A stretch of DNA of 55,351 nt, from positions 1 to 55,351 of the forward strand of contig JAEEML010000025.1 of the NCBI GenBank assembly GCA_016283195.1. Direction: 5' to 3'. Every line of letters starts with the position of its first letter. Positions within the stretch are counted from its first letter, which is position 1. The stretch is from Deltaproteobacteria bacterium. Its GTDB lineage: Bacteria > JAEEML01. The position numbers were made by a program, and so were the translations under genes. The notes beneath the pieces were generated by a model. It did no database searches. It had not been told where the DNA came from and saw only the letters and a program-made list of their open reading frames with translations. Shown piece after piece: positions 4,549 to 28,649 of the stretch.

Positions 4549-4577
4549 TTGACTCTTGGTTTTGAGACTCTCATAAG
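4549..4577 (+). promoter_or_regulatory. Candidate sigma70-type promoter for the beta-barrel/TPR/pseudokinase operon
   Basis: TTGACT (4549-4554), 17-nt spacer, CATAAG (4572-4577), 63 nt upstream of the ATG at 4640. Pattern match only. Confidence 0.35.
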
Positions 4578-4639
4578 AGTTCAAACATTGAGTAGCAATA
4601 GAGGCCTTGTTGGTGACGGTGCCTCGTTTGGGGTTATAC

Positions 4640-5503
4640 ATGAATTTAAGATTAACCGGTTTTTTCTGTGTGGCGGTACTTATTTCCATGCAGTTAGCTC
4701 TGCCTGCCCATGCCCAGACAGAGGAAGAGCTCTTAGGCGGTCTTCCTACTGAGGAACCTGCCGAAAATCCTGCTCCCAGAGCTTCCAAGGCCTCAGCTAA
4801 AGAAGATGAAAAAGCTGAAGCGGCGGAAGTGAAAGACGACAAAGCTGCCAACGATAAGGCCGAAGCCGCCGAGAAGCAGGAAAAGAAGAAAAAAGAAGAG
4901 CTTGAATCGCGCAAAGATATCATCAAAAGTGTGCAGCGCCGGCCTGTTTTGAAGAAACATCGCTTGGAGCTTAATGTCTTCGGCGCTATGACTATTAACG
5001 ATCCGCTCTATTTGACGTTTGCTTTACAAGGCAGCGCCCACTTCTTCTTGGCTGAATCGCTTTCAATCGGTGTTGGTATTGCTTACCTTTTTGATGCTGT
5101 TACTCTTGGCGGCGTGGCTGATGTGCGGCGTAGCGAACGCGCTGTTCCTTCGGTCTTTGAACGCCCGAATATGGCTGGCACCATCGAGATGACTTTTAAC
5201 CCGCTTTATGGCAAAGTGTCATTCCATAATGCTGCTATCGGTCATGTTGATACTTACCTTATCGGCGGCTTCGGCGGTGTTTTTAATTTTCACAAAACCG
5301 GGCGCCCTGCCGGTGTTATCGGCATTGGCCAGCGCTTTAATTTACTCAGCTGGCTCAATATTAAATGGGAACTACGCGATTATATTTTCAATGATACCAT
5401 CGAGAGTAATTATGGCACCAATTCTGATATTCAAAACTACTTCATGCTGAATATCGGGGTTGGCTTCTTTATCCCTCCAACTTTTTCTTATAAAATAAGG
5501 TGA
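4640..5503 (+). CDS. Outer-membrane beta-barrel protein, GltA/GltB (NfsA/NfsB)-like
   Basis: Signal peptide (MNLRLTGFFCVAVLISMQLALPAHAQ), charged linker, then barrel strands; followed by a paralogous barrel and a large TPR protein. Start set at ATG 4640 rather than 4607. Confidence 0.7.
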   Translation: MNLRLTGFFCVAVLISMQLALPAHAQTEEELLGGLPTEEPAENPAPRASKASAKEDEKAEAAEVKDDKAANDKAEAAEKQEKKKKEELESRKDIIKSVQRRPVLKKHRLELNVFGAMTINDPLYLTFALQGSAHFFLAESLSIGVGIAYLFDAVTLGGVADVRRSERAVPSVFERPNMAGTIEMTFNPLYGKVSFHNAAIGHVDTYLIGGFGGVFNFHKTGRPAGVIGIGQRFNLLSWLNIKWELRDYIFNDTIESNYGTNSDIQNYFMLNIGVGFFIPPTFSYKIR

Positions 5504-5514
5504 GGTGCAATAGT

Positions 5515-6396
5515 ATGAACCGTACACACCGTATTTATAATATAATTTCTTTGGCTACCTGTGCACTATTTTTGCTGGCAAGCCAAAATGCCGAAGCTCG
5601 CAGACGTACTCCCACAGCCAAACCGGCCGCCGCGGCAACAGTAGAAAGCCGTTCCGGTTTGGAAGGTGAAGAAGAACAGCAGGGCGAAGCAAAAGATCCA
5701 GCTGCCAGGGCTGAATCTGCCAGAGCCGATGAAGAAGCTGCTGCCGAAGTTGCCGAGAAAAAAGCCAAGACTTCTGTCGGTGTTCCGCTTTCTCAGCGCA
5801 TTAAGGCGGTTACCAGTCAATCGTTTATTCACAAAAAACGCTTTTTAATCGGGCCGGTTATCGGCACAACCATCAATGACCCGTTTTATGCCAGCTTGGC
5901 ACTTGGGCTGAATGCCGGTTTTTATGTTACCGAGCATTTGCTTATTGGTCTTAGCGGTGAATTTTTGCCGGTCAATGGGCCAACTAATCTGGTTAAAGTT
6001 GTGGGGCGTGCCGAAGGTAAAGAGGCCGCTCATTACTATGCCCCGATGTATTTTGCTTATGTGGATGTTAACTGGGTGCCTTTCTACGGCAAAATGTCCA
6101 TAATGGCCGAAGGCGTTTTGCATTATGATTTTTATCTTGTGGGCGGTCTTGGTATCGCCGGTATGCGCTCGACTGATGAAAATGTTGATTACCCGCCACT
6201 TAGTATGTCTGGTAAGTTGGGTATCGGCGCTCATCTTTTTGTTAATAAATGGATTGGTATTCGCGTTGAATTAACCGATCGTATCTCTTACGGCGCGCGC
6301 TACATAGGTGATGTACCTGGTAAAGAAGAGGCCAGTATACAAAATATTATTGGGCTCACTGTCGGCGCTGATTTTCTATTTCCCAGAAGCTGGTAA
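5515..6396 (+). CDS. Outer-membrane beta-barrel protein, paralogue of the preceding gene (GltB/NfsB-like)
   Basis: Signal peptide then A/E/K-rich linker; shares TINDPxYxxxALxxxxxFxxxExLxIGxxxxxL and FNPLYGK/WVPFYGK with the upstream gene. Start set at ATG 5515. Confidence 0.7.
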   Translation: MNRTHRIYNIISLATCALFLLASQNAEARRRTPTAKPAAAATVESRSGLEGEEEQQGEAKDPAARAESARADEEAAAEVAEKKAKTSVGVPLSQRIKAVTSQSFIHKKRFLIGPVIGTTINDPFYASLALGLNAGFYVTEHLLIGLSGEFLPVNGPTNLVKVVGRAEGKEAAHYYAPMYFAYVDVNWVPFYGKMSIMAEGVLHYDFYLVGGLGIAGMRSTDENVDYPPLSMSGKLGIGAHLFVNKWIGIRVELTDRISYGARYIGDVPGKEEASIQNIIGLTVGADFLFPRSW

Positions 6397-6408
6397 GTGA
6401 GGTTGGAT

Positions 6409-8523
6409 ATGTATATGAATAAAGCGGCATATTTCCAATTTCTGCGTATTGTGACTGTATCAGGGCTCGTAATGATCCCCTCTTTGGCTAAGGCTCAGGA
6501 TATGAGCGGCGATATGGGTTTTTCTCTTGACCTAAATGCCCCGGCCGGTGATAGCGGCGGCTTTGCTATTGATCTTGGCAGCGCCCCAAGTTCCGATGCC
6601 GGCAATAGCGGTGGTATCAGTATAGACCTTGGTAGCGGTACTATGGATGCCGGTAGTGATGGCGGCTTTGTTATCGACCTTGGTGATAGCGGCGATTTTT
6701 CCATCGGCGAAATAGATCTTGACTTTGGTTCCGGTGAAGAGGGCGATGGTCTTGATTTTGGCAGTATTGATATGTCTTCCATTTCCGAGATTAAGTCGGT
6801 GGAGCGGGAACAATACGAAGAAGCCTTGAAGCTTATGCGTAACGAGCGCTGGGAACTCGCTGCCGCCAAGTTCTTCCATATTTTAAATGATGATGCCTAT
6901 AAAGAGTTTTATTTTGAATCAGAATATCAATTGGCTAAAGCGCTCTATAAGATGAATCTCTTCCATCCCTCTTTGGAACGCTTTAAAGTGATTCTCAATA
7001 AAGGCCCTGAGCACCCGCGTTATAAAACATCCATTGAATGGGTTTTCTTTATTAGCCGTAAAATTGCCGATCAAAGCGAAGTTCTCAGAGAACTGGCTAA
7101 ATTCCGCAAAGTTACCTGGCCAAAGCAATATCGCAATGAGTATCGTTTCCTTTTGGCTAAGTATCTGTTTTCCCAAGCGCAAATTTTTGAAATTCAGCGC
7201 ATAAAAGACGAAGAAGCGGCAAAACGCAATAAAAAACGCCAAAAATCATTTGATTTCAAAGAGTTTGAAGAGCAACAGTCAGAAGATGACTGGGGCGAGA
7301 CCTTTGTTATTTCCACTGATGACGATGATGAAGATAATTCCTTTGATTTTGGTGAGATAGATCTCAGTGACGGTATGGTTTTTGATATAGAAACCGAAGG
7401 GCAAATGCGTGCCGAGACAGCTCCGTTGCCCACAACAGCTAAAGAAGCTATTGATTTAGCTTTGGAATTGCTTTCAAAAATTTCCGACAAGAGTCAGTTT
7501 AATGCCCAAGCACGTTATTTGGAAGGTCTTCTTCATTACCTGAGCGGCTCGCGCATGGATATTGAAACCAGTGTTAAATCTTTTGTGCAGGTTGTGCGTA
7601 TTTTAGATCCGCGTAAAGCTAAAAAGACTGACCCGGTTCTGCGGGAAGCCGCATTTTTGACACTAGCCAGAATTCACTATGAATTCCGCCAGTTTGACCG
7701 CAGTGTTTTCTATTATGATCGTATTAACCGCGATAGCGATGCCTGGCTCACCTCGCTTTTGGAATCCAGCTGGGCCTATTACCAACGCGGTGATTTTGAA
7801 AAGGCTTTAGGTAATCTTGTTACTCTGCATTCTCCGTTCTTTAATGATGAATATTTCCCGGAGTCCCAAATTTTGAGAGCTGTTATTTATTATGAAAATT
7901 GTCGTTTCCCGGAAACGCGTGAAATTGTTGAAAACTTTATGAAAGATGCCCGCCCGGTTTTGAAGTATTTGCAATCTTATGTAAAAGATAAACCGGATCC
8001 GGAAAAGCTCTATGAGCAAATTGATATGATGCTTAAATCAAAGCGCCGCCGCACTACCGATGAGCTGGCCAATAAAGTTATGCGTCTGGTGACTATGGAT
8101 CAAGATGTGGTTACCGCGCGTGAAAAGGTGGCGGAAATTGATAAGCAAATTGCTATATTAGATAAAAAATCCGATGATTTTAAGAGCACCAATATGTATG
8201 CTCAATTGATTGAGGAGCTGACATCTTTGCGTAAAGTGAGAATGCGTGAAGGCGGCCAGCTCTTAACAGAGCGTTTCAATAAAGAAATCAATGCCTTAAA
8301 GTCGCTTCTTTCTCAGGCTCTGAGTATTCGTATTGAAGTAAATAAACGTGAGCGCGAAATCATTCGTCAAAAAATGCTTGGTGAGGATGCTGGTGTTACT
8401 CAGCGTGCTTATGAGGCCTCTGTAGTAGTTGATGATGAACACCTTTATTGGCCTTATGATGAAGAATATTGGCGCGATGAACTTGGTACTTATGAATATA
8501 CTTTAAGCTGGGGTTGTAAGTAG
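6409..8523 (+). CDS. TPR-containing secreted protein, GltC/NfsC-like
   Basis: Signal peptide (..FLRIVTVSGLVMIPSLAKAQ), Gly/Asp/Ser-rich N-terminal repeats (GGFxIDLG), then TPR-like helical repeats; abuts the two barrels. Confidence 0.6.
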   Translation: MYMNKAAYFQFLRIVTVSGLVMIPSLAKAQDMSGDMGFSLDLNAPAGDSGGFAIDLGSAPSSDAGNSGGISIDLGSGTMDAGSDGGFVIDLGDSGDFSIGEIDLDFGSGEEGDGLDFGSIDMSSISEIKSVEREQYEEALKLMRNERWELAAAKFFHILNDDAYKEFYFESEYQLAKALYKMNLFHPSLERFKVILNKGPEHPRYKTSIEWVFFISRKIADQSEVLRELAKFRKVTWPKQYRNEYRFLLAKYLFSQAQIFEIQRIKDEEAAKRNKKRQKSFDFKEFEEQQSEDDWGETFVISTDDDDEDNSFDFGEIDLSDGMVFDIETEGQMRAETAPLPTTAKEAIDLALELLSKISDKSQFNAQARYLEGLLHYLSGSRMDIETSVKSFVQVVRILDPRKAKKTDPVLREAAFLTLARIHYEFRQFDRSVFYYDRINRDSDAWLTSLLESSWAYYQRGDFEKALGNLVTLHSPFFNDEYFPESQILRAVIYYENCRFPETREIVENFMKDARPVLKYLQSYVKDKPDPEKLYEQIDMMLKSKRRRTTDELANKVMRLVTMDQDVVTAREKVAEIDKQIAILDKKSDDFKSTNMYAQLIEELTSLRKVRMREGGQLLTERFNKEINALKSLLSQALSIRIEVNKREREIIRQKMLGEDAGVTQRAYEASVVVDDEHLYWPYDEEYWRDELGTYEYTLSWGCK

Positions 8524-8537
8524 TTTAGAGGTTTTTA

Positions 8538-10370
8538 ATGTCCAGTTCCCTGCTTTTTGGGAATTATGTTCTGCTTGGTCGAACTCATCAAAGTGCGGTG
8601 GTTGATACTTATATCGCCCACTCAATCAATGAGCTTGAGGCACCTGTTTTTTATCAACTTGAGCGCCTTAGAAGTGCCGCTCGTAAAAATCTCACCGATG
8701 CCCAAAATGTTTTTCAGGAAGCTACCGCTCGCCTGGCGCAAATTGATTCCCCGGAAGTGCCAAGAGTTATTTCTTCCGGCTCTCTCGAAGGGGAAATATA
8801 TTGGGCACGCCACTATATAGATGCGCGACCTCTGGCGCAGGTCCTTAAAAAGTTAGCCCACTTAAAGGTTTCTCTTAGTGATGCTATGGTGGCGCATATT
8901 GTTGGAAAATTGGCCGGGACATTGCCTGATGTTTTAAAACTTGATGGCACATTCCCTTTGATAGCCCCTTATCCGCGCCATGTTTTAGTTGGCTTTGACG
9001 GCCGCATATATAATGCCGATATCGGTCTTTCTTTTTGGCTTTCTGCTCAGCCTAAGAGTGAGCTTACCGAAGAGCGCTGGCGTCTGCCTTATATTGCTCC
9101 GGAAGAATTAAATGGCGGTAAAGTTGAGCAAAAGACGGCTGTTTATGTTTTAGGAACGCTCATGTTTGAGCTTTTGGCTGGGAGGCGTCTTTTTGCCAAA
9201 GGTAGCGATAAGGAGATTGTTAAGCGCATAGCGGCCGGTGAATATACGCAAATTAGCGCTTTAAAGTCGGCTATAAGTAGCGAATTAGCTGATTTACTTA
9301 AATCTATGTTGGAACTTCTTCCGGAAAATCGCCCTTCAGGTGGCGAAATTATAGCTGCTCTGGCTCCGTTGGCAGAAAATGGCGAGAAAGATTGGAATGA
9401 GCTTATTGCTAAGCATTTCCAGGAAGAAAAGGCGGCCGATGAAGCTAATATGGCTACTCTTAAGGATAAAGTAGCTAAATTCAAAGCAGAGCAGGAAGGT
9501 AGCGGTAGCGCAAAAGCAGAAGCTAAGTCTAGGCGCCAAGAAGTTGTTACCGAAGAGATAGGTGCAGATGAGCCTGCAGAAGAGCAGGAAGCAAAGCCGG
9601 TGCGCCGAGACGAAAGCGCTATTCCCACTGCCGAATTGGCAGTTCCGCCGGAAGCAGTAGATGCCAAAAAGGAATTTGAAGCCTTAGGCGCTCAATCTGA
9701 TAATGTAGCTGATGCTGCTACATCAATTATTGCTGCTAATTCTATCGCTCTTGGTAATGATGATCCATTTGGTGAGACTTTGCAAAATGCCGATGAATTG
9801 CAAGCCAAAATAATAGCTGCCAAAGAATCAAACGCTGAGCCGCAAGAAGAAAAGTCTCAAGATAAAGGCGAGAAAAAAACAAAAGAGAAAAGCAAAAAAG
9901 ATAAAAAGAAAAAAGCCGCAAAAGAGGTAACTCCTGCTCCGGCCCAAGTGCCTGCCGCAGCTGTGGGGCCAATGGCACAGCAACAGCAGTTAATGCAACC
10001 GTTGCAGCAGTTTCCTGAAGCCCAGCCGCTTATACCTCCGGGATATCAACCAAATGCATATATGGATAATTTTAACATGATGCAGCCAATGTATCCGCAA
10101 AGCACTATGGGAATGATGCCTCCGCAAACACCGCCTGAATCTAAAGGAATTGGGGCTGTCGGCTGGGTGCTTATAGTGCTTTCAATTGTAATTTCAATGA
10201 GTTTGGTGCTTGGAGCGCTCCTTTATTCCAAGGGCCGTTTGCCGCAACTAGAGCGTTTTGGCTTGCCTCATGTAGAAGCTCCGGCAGTAAATACTGGGCC
10301 GGCTATAGTACCTAGCGGGGTTATTGTTGAACAGCCCAGTAACAAGTCGGACAATAATCAAAATAAATAA
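8538..10370 (+). CDS. Ser/Thr protein pseudokinase with charged linker, Q/P-rich segment and C-terminal TM helix
   Basis: Kinase-like landmarks (FGNYVLLG..., PRHVLVGFDGRIYNADIGLS, YIAPEELNGGKVEQKTAVYVLGTLMFELLAGRRLF) without the Gly loop, VAIK Lys or HRD Asp; TM GWVLIVLSIVISMSLVLGALLY. Confidence 0.75.
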   Translation: MSSSLLFGNYVLLGRTHQSAVVDTYIAHSINELEAPVFYQLERLRSAARKNLTDAQNVFQEATARLAQIDSPEVPRVISSGSLEGEIYWARHYIDARPLAQVLKKLAHLKVSLSDAMVAHIVGKLAGTLPDVLKLDGTFPLIAPYPRHVLVGFDGRIYNADIGLSFWLSAQPKSELTEERWRLPYIAPEELNGGKVEQKTAVYVLGTLMFELLAGRRLFAKGSDKEIVKRIAAGEYTQISALKSAISSELADLLKSMLELLPENRPSGGEIIAALAPLAENGEKDWNELIAKHFQEEKAADEANMATLKDKVAKFKAEQEGSGSAKAEAKSRRQEVVTEEIGADEPAEEQEAKPVRRDESAIPTAELAVPPEAVDAKKEFEALGAQSDNVADAATSIIAANSIALGNDDPFGETLQNADELQAKIIAAKESNAEPQEEKSQDKGEKKTKEKSKKDKKKKAAKEVTPAPAQVPAAAVGPMAQQQQLMQPLQQFPEAQPLIPPGYQPNAYMDNFNMMQPMYPQSTMGMMPPQTPPESKGIGAVGWVLIVLSIVISMSLVLGALLYSKGRLPQLERFGLPHVEAPAVNTGPAIVPSGVIVEQPSNKSDNNQNK

Positions 10371-13348
10371 CCATATAAAATATAAAAGTTATTAGTCCAT
10401 TCAGGACCAATTCCCCGTGCAAAGCCGATGCTTAGGGTGCCGGCTTCATAGTAGGCGATTTTTATATCGAGGCGTAATTCCGCTCCGGGGCCGATGGCTA
10501 GGCGCCCATTTTGCATATCTTTCAGCGAATCAACCAAATAGGCGGCATCGCAGAAAAAGGCCAGGTGCAATTGGTCAAAGTATATAGGCAGGGTGGAAAT
10601 GCCGCGCTGGATGCGCCAAAGCAAAAGGCGCCATTCAAGTGTGCCCTTGATATAGCTATTGCCGGAAAGTGCAGCCATATTAAAACCGCGCAGATAATTT
10701 AAAGTATAAGAGCCCAAAGAAGAAATGGCACCGGCTATATTGCTGATTTCCGGCCCGCCGAGCGAGTAAAGGTAGTTTGGCGAATCCGGGCTAAAGCCAA
10801 AGGCCCCCTGAATGCGCCAGGCTAAAGTGGAACGTAGTGTTGGAATATTTTGATATTGTTGATAATTATAGCTTAGATGGTAACTCTCCTGAGTTGAACC
10901 GAAGGCCTTATGTTCACACTCCAAGCCTAAAGAGAAAGAGAGCCCTCTGGCATTGTGCAGACTTTGGTAATACGAACGCACGGTGGAAAAGTTAAAATAA
11001 AAACCCAGCCGGCCAAAATGGTTGTCCGGCAATTCGATTTTTTCCTTACTCTCCGGAAAATAGCGCTCTCTAAAGAATGGGCGGTAAAAACTAAAGCGGT
11101 AACTTAGAGAAAAACTCATGCTATAGCGCCAGCGGCTTATCGGATAGCTTAAACTGAGTGAGGCACTGGTGATTTTATGGGCCAGGCGCCTTTCCCAGGG
11201 GCGGGAAATGGAGGCGCGGCCCATGCCAAGGTAGTGAGAAAAGCCTAAGCCGATGTTGATAGGCCAGAAGCCTGTGGAATAGCTAAGGCTTACTCCTGGA
11301 TAGTAACTGGCTAGGCCATAATCTAAGGAAAATGAATAATTATGGTGATTTAATATGTCACTTCCCGATGTGGTAAAACCAAGACTATAGCCGTAAGGAT
11401 CCTGCGTAAGTGTGGGCAGCCATAGGCGCGGCAGTAAGGTATACCAAGGAGAATATTTCTTTTTAGACCAGTTTTGCTGCTCTGCACTTTGGGTAAGGCT
11501 ATTATTGGTATTTGTGGCAGTTTTAAGCGGCTCATTAAGTGAATTATGGTCAGCTATATTGGCTGCTATTGGCGAAAAGAGGGCCTGGGCCGGGCAAGGT
11601 ACTGTAGCGCGTTCAAGCCACGCTTCGCGATTTTGTGGTAACATGGCTACATTATAGCCATTCTCACCAAGTTTAAGAAAATAGAGGGCCTTGCCGGCTT
11701 CCAATGGATAAAATGCCCCGGCTATTTCATCGCTAATTTGATAAAGATGGCAAATATCATTGCCAGCCGGGGTTAAAGCAAAGATATTAAAGGTTTCATC
11801 GTCCAAATCGCCATGAAAATAAAGAATATCACCATTTGCAGAAAAGTGCTGCCCACTGAGCAAATGGCCACCTGGAGAAAAGCGGGTTTTATGGCGATAG
11901 CTATTGCCAGCGCGACGAAAAATATCAAAATAGCGCTTGCCGCCCTCTGTCCAGGTGGCAGTGATGATGAGATTATCGTCAGGTGAAAATTGCGGATAAT
12001 AAAATACCTCGGAATTATTGGCTTTTTTTATTAACTTCTTTTGGCTGAAATCGCTGCTGGCAAGCCATAGAGAGGAAGTGTTGCCTTCGTTTATTACATA
12101 AGCTAGCCATTTCCCATCATGTGAGAAAACCGGCTGAAAAATGCGCTCCGGTGCTTTTTTAGCGCGGTGCGAAACATGGCGTCCTTTGGATAACTCCATG
12201 AGCTCATTATAAAAAGTAAAAGTATTCTGCCATTCGGTGATAGTGAAAAGCAGGTGGCCATCTTCAGGTGAAATGGCTGGGTGACTGCTGCTTTGGGCTC
12301 TGGATACTTTGCGCACCTTGTTGGTATTTAGATCCAGACGGTATAAGCGGCTGTCATCATTGCCGTTGCCGCTGACAAAATAGATATTATTCTCATAAAG
12401 CAAAAGCGGGCTCTTGCTGTGGCCGTTTTGGGTGAGAAGCGTACTTTTAGGCAGAGCACGAGCCGCTATGGCCTCTCCTTTGGCCTTAGCTGCACTGTTT
12501 AAATTGCTTATAAGCAATTTGTAAACGTCATTTATTTTAAGATTACCGGCACTAAAAGCCTTGGTTTGGATAAAGTAGGGAATAACAGAAGTGCCATATA
12601 GATGTGAATAGGCCGCCGGCCATCTATTGCCGCTTAATTCTCCGAAAAGATTGATCATATGGCCGCCGAAAAGGTAAGGAATAGTGCCATAAGGCCACTT
12701 GGCGGCGGCATTAGTTATTTGGTCTAATTTTGGCAGCTCGCCGGCGGCGGCCAGGGCGCGCAGGTAGCCGGTCATCAGCGGCGAATTCAAGCGGCCCGGT
12801 GTGCCGTTCAAAGATTCGGCATAGACAGCATAGCCTTCAATAAGCCATTGTGGCTGAATAGAATTAGGGCTCCACCAGGGGCCAAAGATGGTGTTAAAAG
12901 CTTTGGGCAGGCCGTGCACGGTATCCAGTTGCAAAATATGCATATATTCATGAGTGAGCAGGCTGTCGGTGCGGTCGGCCATATCCATGAGCTCGCTCAA
13001 ATCGGTGGGCGGCGTAACATAATATTTTATTATGGGCATGGGGCTGGTTTGGGCGCTGCCGTTGGCGCTATCAGTGTGGTCGGTGATAAGCAAAACCACT
13101 TTTGAGGTGGGATAATGGCGCATAAGCGGGCCGAGATCCAAATAGCGCTGCTCCAGGATAAGAGCGCTTTTTTCGGCCAGGAGTTCCAGCTTTTCTGGGT
13201 AATAAATAATAAAGTGCTTAGTTGAGAGCTGCTGCCAGTTTAGTGCTGGATCATAGCCGGCTCTAAGGGGCGCAGCGCTCAAAAAGCATAGCAAAAAAGC
13301 TAATATTCCTGCCTTGATAGCGCCGCTTATAAGCCGGGTTTCAGCCAT
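10358..13348 (-). CDS. Exported gluzincin-like (HExxH) protein with TolB-type beta-propeller and C-terminal outer-membrane barrel
   Basis: Signal peptide; HEYMH in LLTHEYMHILQLDTVHG; repeated F/YSPDD/HDGKWLAY propeller motifs; barrel-like C-terminus ending ...FYILYGYLF. Confidence 0.7.
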   Translation of the reverse strand: MAETRLISGAIKAGILAFLLCFLSAAPLRAGYDPALNWQQLSTKHFIIYYPEKLELLAEKSALILEQRYLDLGPLMRHYPTSKVVLLITDHTDSANGSAQTSPMPIIKYYVTPPTDLSELMDMADRTDSLLTHEYMHILQLDTVHGLPKAFNTIFGPWWSPNSIQPQWLIEGYAVYAESLNGTPGRLNSPLMTGYLRALAAAGELPKLDQITNAAAKWPYGTIPYLFGGHMINLFGELSGNRWPAAYSHLYGTSVIPYFIQTKAFSAGNLKINDVYKLLISNLNSAAKAKGEAIAARALPKSTLLTQNGHSKSPLLLYENNIYFVSGNGNDDSRLYRLDLNTNKVRKVSRAQSSSHPAISPEDGHLLFTITEWQNTFTFYNELMELSKGRHVSHRAKKAPERIFQPVFSHDGKWLAYVINEGNTSSLWLASSDFSQKKLIKKANNSEVFYYPQFSPDDNLIITATWTEGGKRYFDIFRRAGNSYRHKTRFSPGGHLLSGQHFSANGDILYFHGDLDDETFNIFALTPAGNDICHLYQISDEIAGAFYPLEAGKALYFLKLGENGYNVAMLPQNREAWLERATVPCPAQALFSPIAANIADHNSLNEPLKTATNTNNSLTQSAEQQNWSKKKYSPWYTLLPRLWLPTLTQDPYGYSLGFTTSGSDILNHHNYSFSLDYGLASYYPGVSLSYSTGFWPINIGLGFSHYLGMGRASISRPWERRLAHKITSASLSLSYPISRWRYSMSFSLSYRFSFYRPFFRERYFPESKEKIELPDNHFGRLGFYFNFSTVRSYYQSLHNARGLSFSLGLECEHKAFGSTQESYHLSYNYQQYQNIPTLRSTLAWRIQGAFGFSPDSPNYLYSLGGPEISNIAGAISSLGSYTLNYLRGFNMAALSGNSYIKGTLEWRLLLWRIQRGISTLPIYFDQLHLAFFCDAAYLVDSLKDMQNGRLAIGPGAELRLDIKIAYYEAGTLSIGFARGIGPEWTNNFYILYGYLF

Positions 13349-25225: not shown

Positions 25226-26632
25226 TTATACAATATTTTCGCAGGCATCATGCAGGGCTTCGGCCAGGGTAGGGTGGGCATGGCAGGTATATTTTACCTC
25301 ATGGGCAGTCATTTTTTTATCTACCAGAATAGTGGCTTCGGCAATGAGCTCGCTGGCATGGGGGCCAAAAATTTGTACGCCGATAATTTCTTTTGTCTCG
25401 GCTTTGGTCACCACTTTAACCAGGCCATCGGCAGCTAACGGCTGGCCATTTTGTAAACCCATCATGGATTGCGCGCGGCCATTGGCCGCAAAGTAGCTTT
25501 TGCCGCAAACTGTCTTAAGCCCCAGCTTTTTAGCTTTAGCCTCGCTTAGCCCAACAGTGGCAAGTTCCGGTTCTGTATAAATAACAGCCGGAATATTAGA
25601 AACCTGTACCTTTGCATTTTTATTGATTAATTTTGCAATGAGTACTCTGGCTTCTGTTTCGGCTTTGTGGGCCAGCATCGGGCCCTTAATGGCATCGCCG
25701 ATGGCATAAATACCGGCTTTTGTGGTGGCGTAATTTTCATCAACAACAATATATCCGCGCTCATCCAATTGCACGCCGGCCTCAATCAATCCCATATCGG
25801 TGGTATTGGGGCGGCGACCGACAGCCACCAGCACTTTGTCGGCCAAAAATTCAGTTACCTCTCCGCTAAGTTCGCATTGCACAAAAGCGGCTTCATATCC
25901 TTCGCCCATTGCTGTGGTTTCGCGGCGAACAGCGATTTTTAGCACTTTGGCGCCGGTATAAATATCAAGGCCACGTTTTTTGAGCGCTCTTTCAAATAAA
26001 ACAGCTATTTGCTTATCATCAAGGCCAGCTATTTGGGGCAGCATTTCCAAAATAGTGACCTGGCTGCCAAAAAATTGCCACACTCTGCCGAGCTCCAAAC
26101 CGATGGCTCCGCCGCCGATAATTACCAACTTATGAGGAGCTTTACCAAAGGAGAGCGCATCAGTTGAGGAGACAATATACCGGTGATCAAAAGGAGCAAA
26201 GGGCAGTTCTGCCTCTTTTGAACCAGGTGCCAAAATGATTTTATCGGCCGAAATTTGTTCTGTGTTATCGCCATTTTTGCAGAGCAGAGAGCCATCTTTT
26301 TGCAAAAAAGCCCGGCCGGTGAAAATAGTAATGCCCCTGGAGAGCATTAGCTGATTGATACCTTCTGCCAGCTTGGCAATTATAGCTTCCTTGCGAGACA
26401 TTTGCCAGGCAAGAGTAGATTCTTCATAAAATGCAGGCCTCATAAAATCTCTAGCTTCAAGCAGCACTTTTGAAGGAATGCATCCTCTATTCAGGCAGGT
26501 GCCGCCGAGATTTTTATCCTGCTCGATAAGAGCAACCTTTAGGCCGGCTTTGCCCGCCTCGGCTGCCGCCACATAGCCGGCCGGCCCGCCGCCCACAATA
26601 GCCAAATCAAAATTAGTTACCGGTTCCATCAT
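25226..26632 (-). CDS. lpdA: Dihydrolipoyl dehydrogenase
   Basis: GGTCLNRGCIPSK redox motif, GGGAIGLELG, AIGDAI, CHAHPTLAEALHDA. Confidence 0.95.
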   Translation of the reverse strand: MMEPVTNFDLAIVGGGPAGYVAAAEAGKAGLKVALIEQDKNLGGTCLNRGCIPSKVLLEARDFMRPAFYEESTLAWQMSRKEAIIAKLAEGINQLMLSRGITIFTGRAFLQKDGSLLCKNGDNTEQISADKIILAPGSKEAELPFAPFDHRYIVSSTDALSFGKAPHKLVIIGGGAIGLELGRVWQFFGSQVTILEMLPQIAGLDDKQIAVLFERALKKRGLDIYTGAKVLKIAVRRETTAMGEGYEAAFVQCELSGEVTEFLADKVLVAVGRRPNTTDMGLIEAGVQLDERGYIVVDENYATTKAGIYAIGDAIKGPMLAHKAETEARVLIAKLINKNAKVQVSNIPAVIYTEPELATVGLSEAKAKKLGLKTVCGKSYFAANGRAQSMMGLQNGQPLAADGLVKVVTKAETKEIIGVQIFGPHASELIAEATILVDKKMTAHEVKYTCHAHPTLAEALHDACENIV

Positions 26633-27212
26633 CGTTTTGCCCCCCCTTTCCCGGCAATTTAACCAGAGCGGTTTGCAGAATATTCCACACTTGCTGGCTG
26701 TTTAAAAAACGGGTGGTAAATTGGCCAAAACTGATGGTATCGCCAAAAAAGAGCTCATACTCTTTGCGCGGCTCCAAGGGAAATGAATTTATAGTAGTAC
26801 CGTTGGTCGAGCCTAAGTCGCTGATAGTAAAACGCTTTTTTTGCTCGTCATATATAAAACAGGCATGGCGCTTGGAAATACGGCTATCGGGAATAACAAT
26901 ATCAGAAAGATTAGTGCGCCCTAAGCTGATGCGCTCTTTAAAAGGATTTATGGCTTTTTTGGTGATGGGCACCAAAGCATAATCTATGAGTTTATGGTGC
27001 AGCCGCCAGCCTCGCTCTTCCAGGCGATTTAGCTCTTCCAGGCGGTTTAATAAATCCGGCGCCATGGCCGCCACCTGGGTGGAGACGGTAAAACGTTTTT
27101 GATCCGGGGGAGTTGCCGATTCAATGAGCAAAAACGGGTAGTTGTGCTTGGCAACAAATGTTTCGCAATCCAGCATGCGTTCTTCAACATACTTATCCAA
27201 AGATTCCATCAT
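26613..27212 (-). CDS. FHA domain protein
   Basis: ISLGRTNLSDIVIPDSRISKRHACFIY...FTISDLGSTNGTTINSF. Confidence 0.9.
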   Translation of the reverse strand: MMESLDKYVEERMLDCETFVAKHNYPFLLIESATPPDQKRFTVSTQVAAMAPDLLNRLEELNRLEERGWRLHHKLIDYALVPITKKAINPFKERISLGRTNLSDIVIPDSRISKRHACFIYDEQKKRFTISDLGSTNGTTINSFPLEPRKEYELFFGDTISFGQFTTRFLNSQQVWNILQTALVKLPGKGGQNDDGTGN

Positions 27213-28070: not shown

Positions 28071-28649
28071 ATGGCAAATCTCATAGACTATGTACAAAAT
28101 AGCGATCTCGAATATGCCTGCGCCGGGCGGCCGGTATTAATCAAATCCGCTCTTAGCGAGGAGGTGGTTATTGCCGAGACTTCGGCCAAAGCACCTGCCG
28201 GTTTTGGCGGCGGGACTAATGGTTTTCCGGAGCCGACAGCTGTTTTTCACCATGAGACAATAGCTATGATGATGGCCGGTAAACATGATAAAGTTGAAGA
28301 ACTGGCCAAGCTGGTAAAGCCCGATTCTTTGGTTTTGCCGCTGGTTTCCAAAGGCGGTGTTTGGGCTAATGTTACCTTGGGACGAAGCGCTGCGGCCGAT
28401 TTACACCTTGATGATCCCACCGCATCGGTTATTCATGCCACCTTTGAAATAGGTGCTCACGATTATCCTTTTGTGATGAAGGATATGGATTCTTCCAACG
28501 GCACCTATGTAAATTGCGAGCGCATTCAGCCTTATGTGCCGGTTAATCTGGCCAGCGGTGATTGTGTGCGCTTCGGTCACTCCATTTTTTATTTTCTTAA
28601 TGATAGCCATTTTACCGATTTACTTGAACTTTTTAGAGAAAAACAGTGA
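28071..28649 (+). CDS. FHA domain protein
   Basis: VTLGRSAAADLHLDDPTASVIHATFEI...FVMKDMDSSNGTYVNCERI. Confidence 0.88.
   Translation: MANLIDYVQNSDLEYACAGRPVLIKSALSEEVVIAETSAKAPAGFGGGTNGFPEPTAVFHHETIAMMMAGKHDKVEELAKLVKPDSLVLPLVSKGGVWANVTLGRSAAADLHLDDPTASVIHATFEIGAHDYPFVMKDMDSSNGTYVNCERIQPYVPVNLASGDCVRFGHSIFYFLNDSHFTDLLELFREKQ

Follow-up and report, generated by a model that had tools for sequence, protein, structure and literature searches.

A predicted Glt-type gltB-gltA-gltC operon followed by a Ser/Thr pseudokinase gene in a deltaproteobacterial genome

A candidate Glt-type gltB-gltA-gltC operon, followed after 14 nt by a gene for a membrane-anchored Ser/Thr pseudokinase, was found in a Deltaproteobacteria bacterium (GTDB JAEEML01, assembly GCA_016283195.1). 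The window, that is, the whole analysed stretch of contig JAEEML010000025.1, comprises 55,351 nt. Other candidate components of the machine are dispersed over several contigs of the same genome. Tentatively, we favour the reading that this is a dispersed Glt machine of the gliding type, with the pseudokinase as a lineage-specific adaptor co-expressed from the gltBAC operon.

The gltBAC genes

The region contains four genes on one strand, with intergenic gaps of 11, 12 and 14 nt.

4640..5503, plus strand: barrel 1, GltB-like exported outer-membrane beta-barrel, 287 aa from the ATG (TIGR04565, 78.3 bits)
5515..6396, plus strand: barrel 2, exported outer-membrane beta-barrel, GltA-like by position, 293 aa (TIGR04565, 80.2 bits)
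6409..8523, plus strand: GltC, exported TPR protein, 704 aa (NF033756, 493 bits)
8538..10370, plus strand: Ser/Thr pseudokinase, 610 aa (PF00069, 47.8 bits)

The gltC gene may start at 6397 or 6409, which with the end at 8523 gives 708 or 704 aa. A preliminary description had assigned the module to positions 4549-10370. The four plus-strand genes are indeed there, but the start at 4549 lies upstream of the barrel 1 open reading frame, which begins at 4640.

Both barrels score above the cut-off of the OMP_myx_plus model TIGR04565 (60 bits), and the TPR protein above that of the NCBIfam model gliding_GltC, NF033756 (450 bits; E 1.5e-147). These profile matches bear out the original description of a GltABC/NfsABC-like module, and the protein lengths agree with its two adjacent paralogous barrels of about 290 aa followed by an exported TPR protein of about 705 aa. 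The two barrels upstream of gltC are 28% identical to each other. Barrel 2 also matches PF13505, with 20.7 bits, below the cut-off of this Pfam model. Signal-peptide-like N-termini were observed by eye on both barrels and on GltC. In barrel 1 the signal peptide, a charged A/E/K-rich tail and the C-terminal barrel follow each other. The window GltC shares 38% identity with a GltC from the Myxococcaceae. It has an acidic insert of about 70 aa, and its N-terminal tail contains four GF.LDL-like motifs. In a search against solved structures, kinases and TPR proteins were the only matches.

The trio is assigned to the Glt type because it passes the family models and because the window GltC is placed with GltC of M. 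xanthus, and not with NfsC, in a maximum likelihood tree of 35 proteins (branch support of the M. xanthus GltC clade 100/99). In the same tree the second GltC of the genome, encoded on contig C134, joins one Myxococcaceae NfsC (support 100/97), and the window GltC lies outside this group. In the barrel tree, barrel 1 falls with the first barrels (gltB position) of the glt loci of Myxococcota, although the support is moderate (SH-aLRT 91) and the branch is long; the placement of barrel 2 is loose. Contig C134 carries a separate Nfs-type cluster (loci L039 and L041) that includes a GltG-like protein and CglE and is joined, in place of AglRQS, to a TolQ-TolQ-ExbD-TonB-TPR set. The GltG of this contig is nearest to NfsG. 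The GltC tree and this separate cluster rule out an Nfs identity of the window trio. The identification as Glt was thus correct, and it can be made more precise: a Glt type is predicted for the trio, and the Nfs-type paralogue resides elsewhere in the genome.

The motif G[LF](xL)DL occurs four times in the N-terminal tail of the window GltC (aa 37-91) and once in the acidic insert (aa 322). Four copies compare with 0.03 expected by shuffling, a descriptive figure, as the motif was chosen after viewing these sequences. The GltC tails of relatives contain about 0.94 copies per 100 residues versus 0.07 in the rest of GltC, again as a description only. Similar motifs are seen in the N-terminal tails of GltC and GltB in most of 80 relatives, and are absent from the Nfs-type GltC of C134.

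The pseudokinase

The product of the fourth gene matches PF00069 with E 1.7e-12. The kinase-like domain (residues ~7-275) is followed by a linker rich in Lys, Ala and Glu and then by a segment rich in Pro, Gln and Met, which contains PPGY at residue 500. A single transmembrane helix, as read from the sequence, spans ~540-563 and leaves a periplasmic tail of about 47 aa. In the alignment to active kinases, the glycines of the Gly-loop and the whole HRD motif are lost, the VAIK lysine is replaced by Q, and DFG is changed to DIG with the aspartate kept. The APE motif and the C-lobe arginine are also kept. The protein is predicted to be a Ser/Thr pseudokinase that has lost its catalytic motifs. 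Its structure model is unreliable (mean pLDDT 47) and too poor for a structure search. The intact frame of 610 aa, together with the loss of catalytic residues, argues that the protein has been kept for some non-catalytic role, not necessarily in the Glt machine.

The gene starts exactly 14 nt past the gltC stop codon. The domain match, the motif loss, the single transmembrane helix and this spacing all agree with the membrane-anchored pseudokinase described previously. No terminator-like site was found between gltC and the pseudokinase gene, and this, together with the short spacing, suggests that the two genes are co-transcribed.

The pseudokinase gene converges with a gene on the minus strand (10358-13348) encoding a protein of 996 aa with a gluzincin-like HEYMH motif (by eye), a match to a TolB-like propeller, and a C-terminus of the Omp85 family. 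Two FHA-domain-like proteins, also recognised by eye, are encoded in the window at 26613-27212 (minus strand) and 28071-28649 (plus strand).

Genes downstream of gltC in relatives

The gene neighbourhoods were compared at 80 related gltC loci; in a few cases the available sequence stops at gltC or shortly downstream. All 80 are distant, with GltC at most ~40% identical. A profile search found no kinase directly after gltC at any of these loci, and in this sample of distant relatives the synteny of the pseudokinase with the barrel-barrel-TPR genes is thus not observed. The next gene encodes an MFS transporter at 29 loci, PlsX at 22 (both named by eye) and GltD at 14 or more. The MFS and PlsX genes are often as tightly spaced, and several next genes overlap gltC by a few nucleotides. 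At locus L121 a kinase of 1151 aa is encoded near gltC, but on the opposite strand and with another gene between. No clear ortholog of the pseudokinase was found in 11 related genomes, where the matches (~18-32% identity) look like ordinary kinases. In M. xanthus gltC is followed by MXAN_2542, which does not belong to the operon and is dispensable for gliding (PMC4488436). The adjacency of gltC and the pseudokinase gene is by itself weak evidence, because it is seen at none of the 80 loci, the protein has no clear ortholog in the 11 genomes, and MXAN_2542 is not a part of the operon.

One possibility is that the trio forms a Glt gliding module next to which the pseudokinase gene lies incidentally, its product playing no part in the machine. 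The relatives, with MFS, PlsX or GltD genes in this position and never a kinase, are consistent with this, as is the precedent of MXAN_2542. The genome contains 24 Pkinase matches, from which we estimate the chance of a kinase as the next gene to be about 1% per locus. On the other hand, the 14-nt spacing with no terminator-like site points to co-transcription, and the intact full-length frame despite catalytic loss points to some non-catalytic function. Incidental adjacency is almost as likely as the adaptor reading. As to the suggested new cytoplasmic control component, the existence and tight spacing of the pseudokinase are confirmed; such a role is possible, but a kinase in this position at none of the 80 loci speaks against it.

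Other components of the machine

Neither mgl nor agl genes, nor any further glt genes, occur in the window itself. This had been stated previously and is correct for the window; it does not hold for the genome, where such genes were found on other contigs, although AglRQS proper was not among them. Contig C6 encodes a GltG of 664 aa with an FHA domain and a TonB-like tail. It matches NF033760 over the full length with 449 bits, under the cut-off of 650, and most closely resembles the gltG products of Glt clusters. This gene is preceded, at a distance of 51 nt, by a CglF match. GltJ-like Zn-ribbon proteins are encoded on C31 and C136, and their zinc ribbon and GYF regions are N-terminal; the C136 protein has the Pfam domain GYF_2. 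The mglB and mglA genes are on C138 and C167, whose ends overlap by exactly 141 bp, and thus form one operon. MglB was recognised by PF03259 (62 bits) and NF052242 (86.5 bits against a cut-off of 200, set for a Thermus-type model), and MglA by PF00025 (31.8 bits) and by inspection of the sequence.

A TolQ-ExbD-ExbD-GltG131 locus with a Ser/Thr kinase gene downstream was found on C131 (L053). No kinase was observed within the 1.5-kb flanks of GltG131 orthologs in Myxococcota relatives. In the TolQ tree the C131 motor groups in a clade sister to AglRQS, apart from the M. xanthus set, which was recognised by Asp28 of ExbD; this marker residue is D28 of AglQ (PMC3858216). The tree rules out this motor as AglRQS, and no other TolQ gene with two ExbD genes of the AglRQS type was found in the genome. 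The M. xanthus AglR homologue MXAN_3003 showed no binding to GltG or NfsG in a two-hybrid assay (PMC3858216). TPR proteins resembling GltD and GltE are encoded on C171. Their assignment to the Glt type is uncertain, and GltD and GltE of this type were not identified with certainty in the genome. This result, the sister-clade placement of the motor and the MXAN_3003 assay count against the favoured reading.

Because the window lacks further glt genes, it had been suggested that this may be an export or surface-assembly version of the machine. This inference fails, because gltG, cglF, gltJ-like genes, mglBA and a TolQ-ExbD-ExbD set occur elsewhere in the genome. In M. xanthus, gltA-C and gltD-H are separate clusters too (PMC3858216). 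Thus these sequence data are best read as a Glt-type machine with dispersed genes, whose output is most likely gliding. An Nfs-like role of the window module in surface-polymer transport or envelope assembly, and not in gliding, would fit the failure to find AglRQS proper and the ability of Nfs to move surface polymer (PMC3858216), but is improbable, as GltC and GltG both group with their Glt-type counterparts, the Nfs-type cluster is separate, and MglBA, CglF and GltJ-like proteins are present, whereas the Nfs set has no paralogue of GltI, J or K (PMC3858216).

Possible role of the pseudokinase

In the dispersed Glt-type machine, the GltB and GltA barrels and the periplasmic TPR protein GltC would form the outer part of an envelope-spanning, proton-driven surface machine of the Agl/Glt type. 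Its inner parts would be the separately encoded GltG, CglF, GltJ-like proteins, MglBA and TolQ-ExbD-ExbD motor, and its output would most likely be gliding. The pseudokinase, whose gene may be co-transcribed with gltBAC, could act as a membrane-anchored non-catalytic adaptor on the cytoplasmic side.

Two ways of docking can be considered. The PPGY motif resembles known ligands of GYF domains, and the Pro-rich segment of the pseudokinase might bind a GYF domain in one of the GltJ-like proteins. Alternatively, the pseudokinase could be phosphorylated and serve as a scaffold that an FHA domain recognises. Reading of phosphothreonine by the C6 GltG is doubtful, since its FHA domain has Ala/Ile versus the canonical Ser/Asn (by eye). 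The stronger proposal, that the pseudokinase is a lineage-specific Glt part that docks on a GltJ-like protein or GltG and adds to or replaces control of the AglZ type, seems to us rather doubtful. To our knowledge, no part of the Glt machine has a kinase fold. A scaffold mechanism is plausible, because pseudokinases serve as scaffolds in other envelope systems, namely EssB/YukC of T7SSb and MviN with FhaA (PMC12599244). Bacterial pseudokinase families with motifs of their own have been described, among them ActPs, CP1, DYD, DLHK and GLW (PMC12599244).

By this analysis, a GltBAC module together with a large part of the Glt/Nfs/Mgl set occurs in a lineage whose GltC is about 40% identical to that of its nearest named kin. 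Should the pseudokinase prove to be a part of the machine, the kinase-fold scaffolds of secretion and cell-wall systems would serve surface motors as well, and the protein would provide a handle on the cytoplasmic control of the Glt machine.

Comparison with known systems

The closest counterpart is GltB-GltA-GltC of M. xanthus (MXAN_2539-2541), with the same barrel-barrel-TPR order, signal peptides and family models, and with a GltC that groups with the window protein. The flanks differ. The downstream gene is the pseudokinase gene here and the MFS gene MXAN_2542 in M. xanthus, and the upstream gene encodes an amylase-family protein on the same strand here, whereas in M. xanthus it is the divergent cglC. 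The window GltC further differs from that of M. xanthus in its four GF.LDL-like motifs and acidic insert. The NfsA-NfsB-NfsC proteins of the M. xanthus spore-coat machine are paralogous and share the gene order and families, but the window GltC groups with Glt. For the fourth gene, the analogy is with EssB/YukC of T7SSb and the pseudokinase domain of MviN, where a membrane protein with a catalytically inactive Ser/Thr kinase fold acts as an envelope scaffold (PMC12599244). Unlike these, the window protein keeps the aspartate of DFG, as DIG, and is linked to the glt genes by position only.
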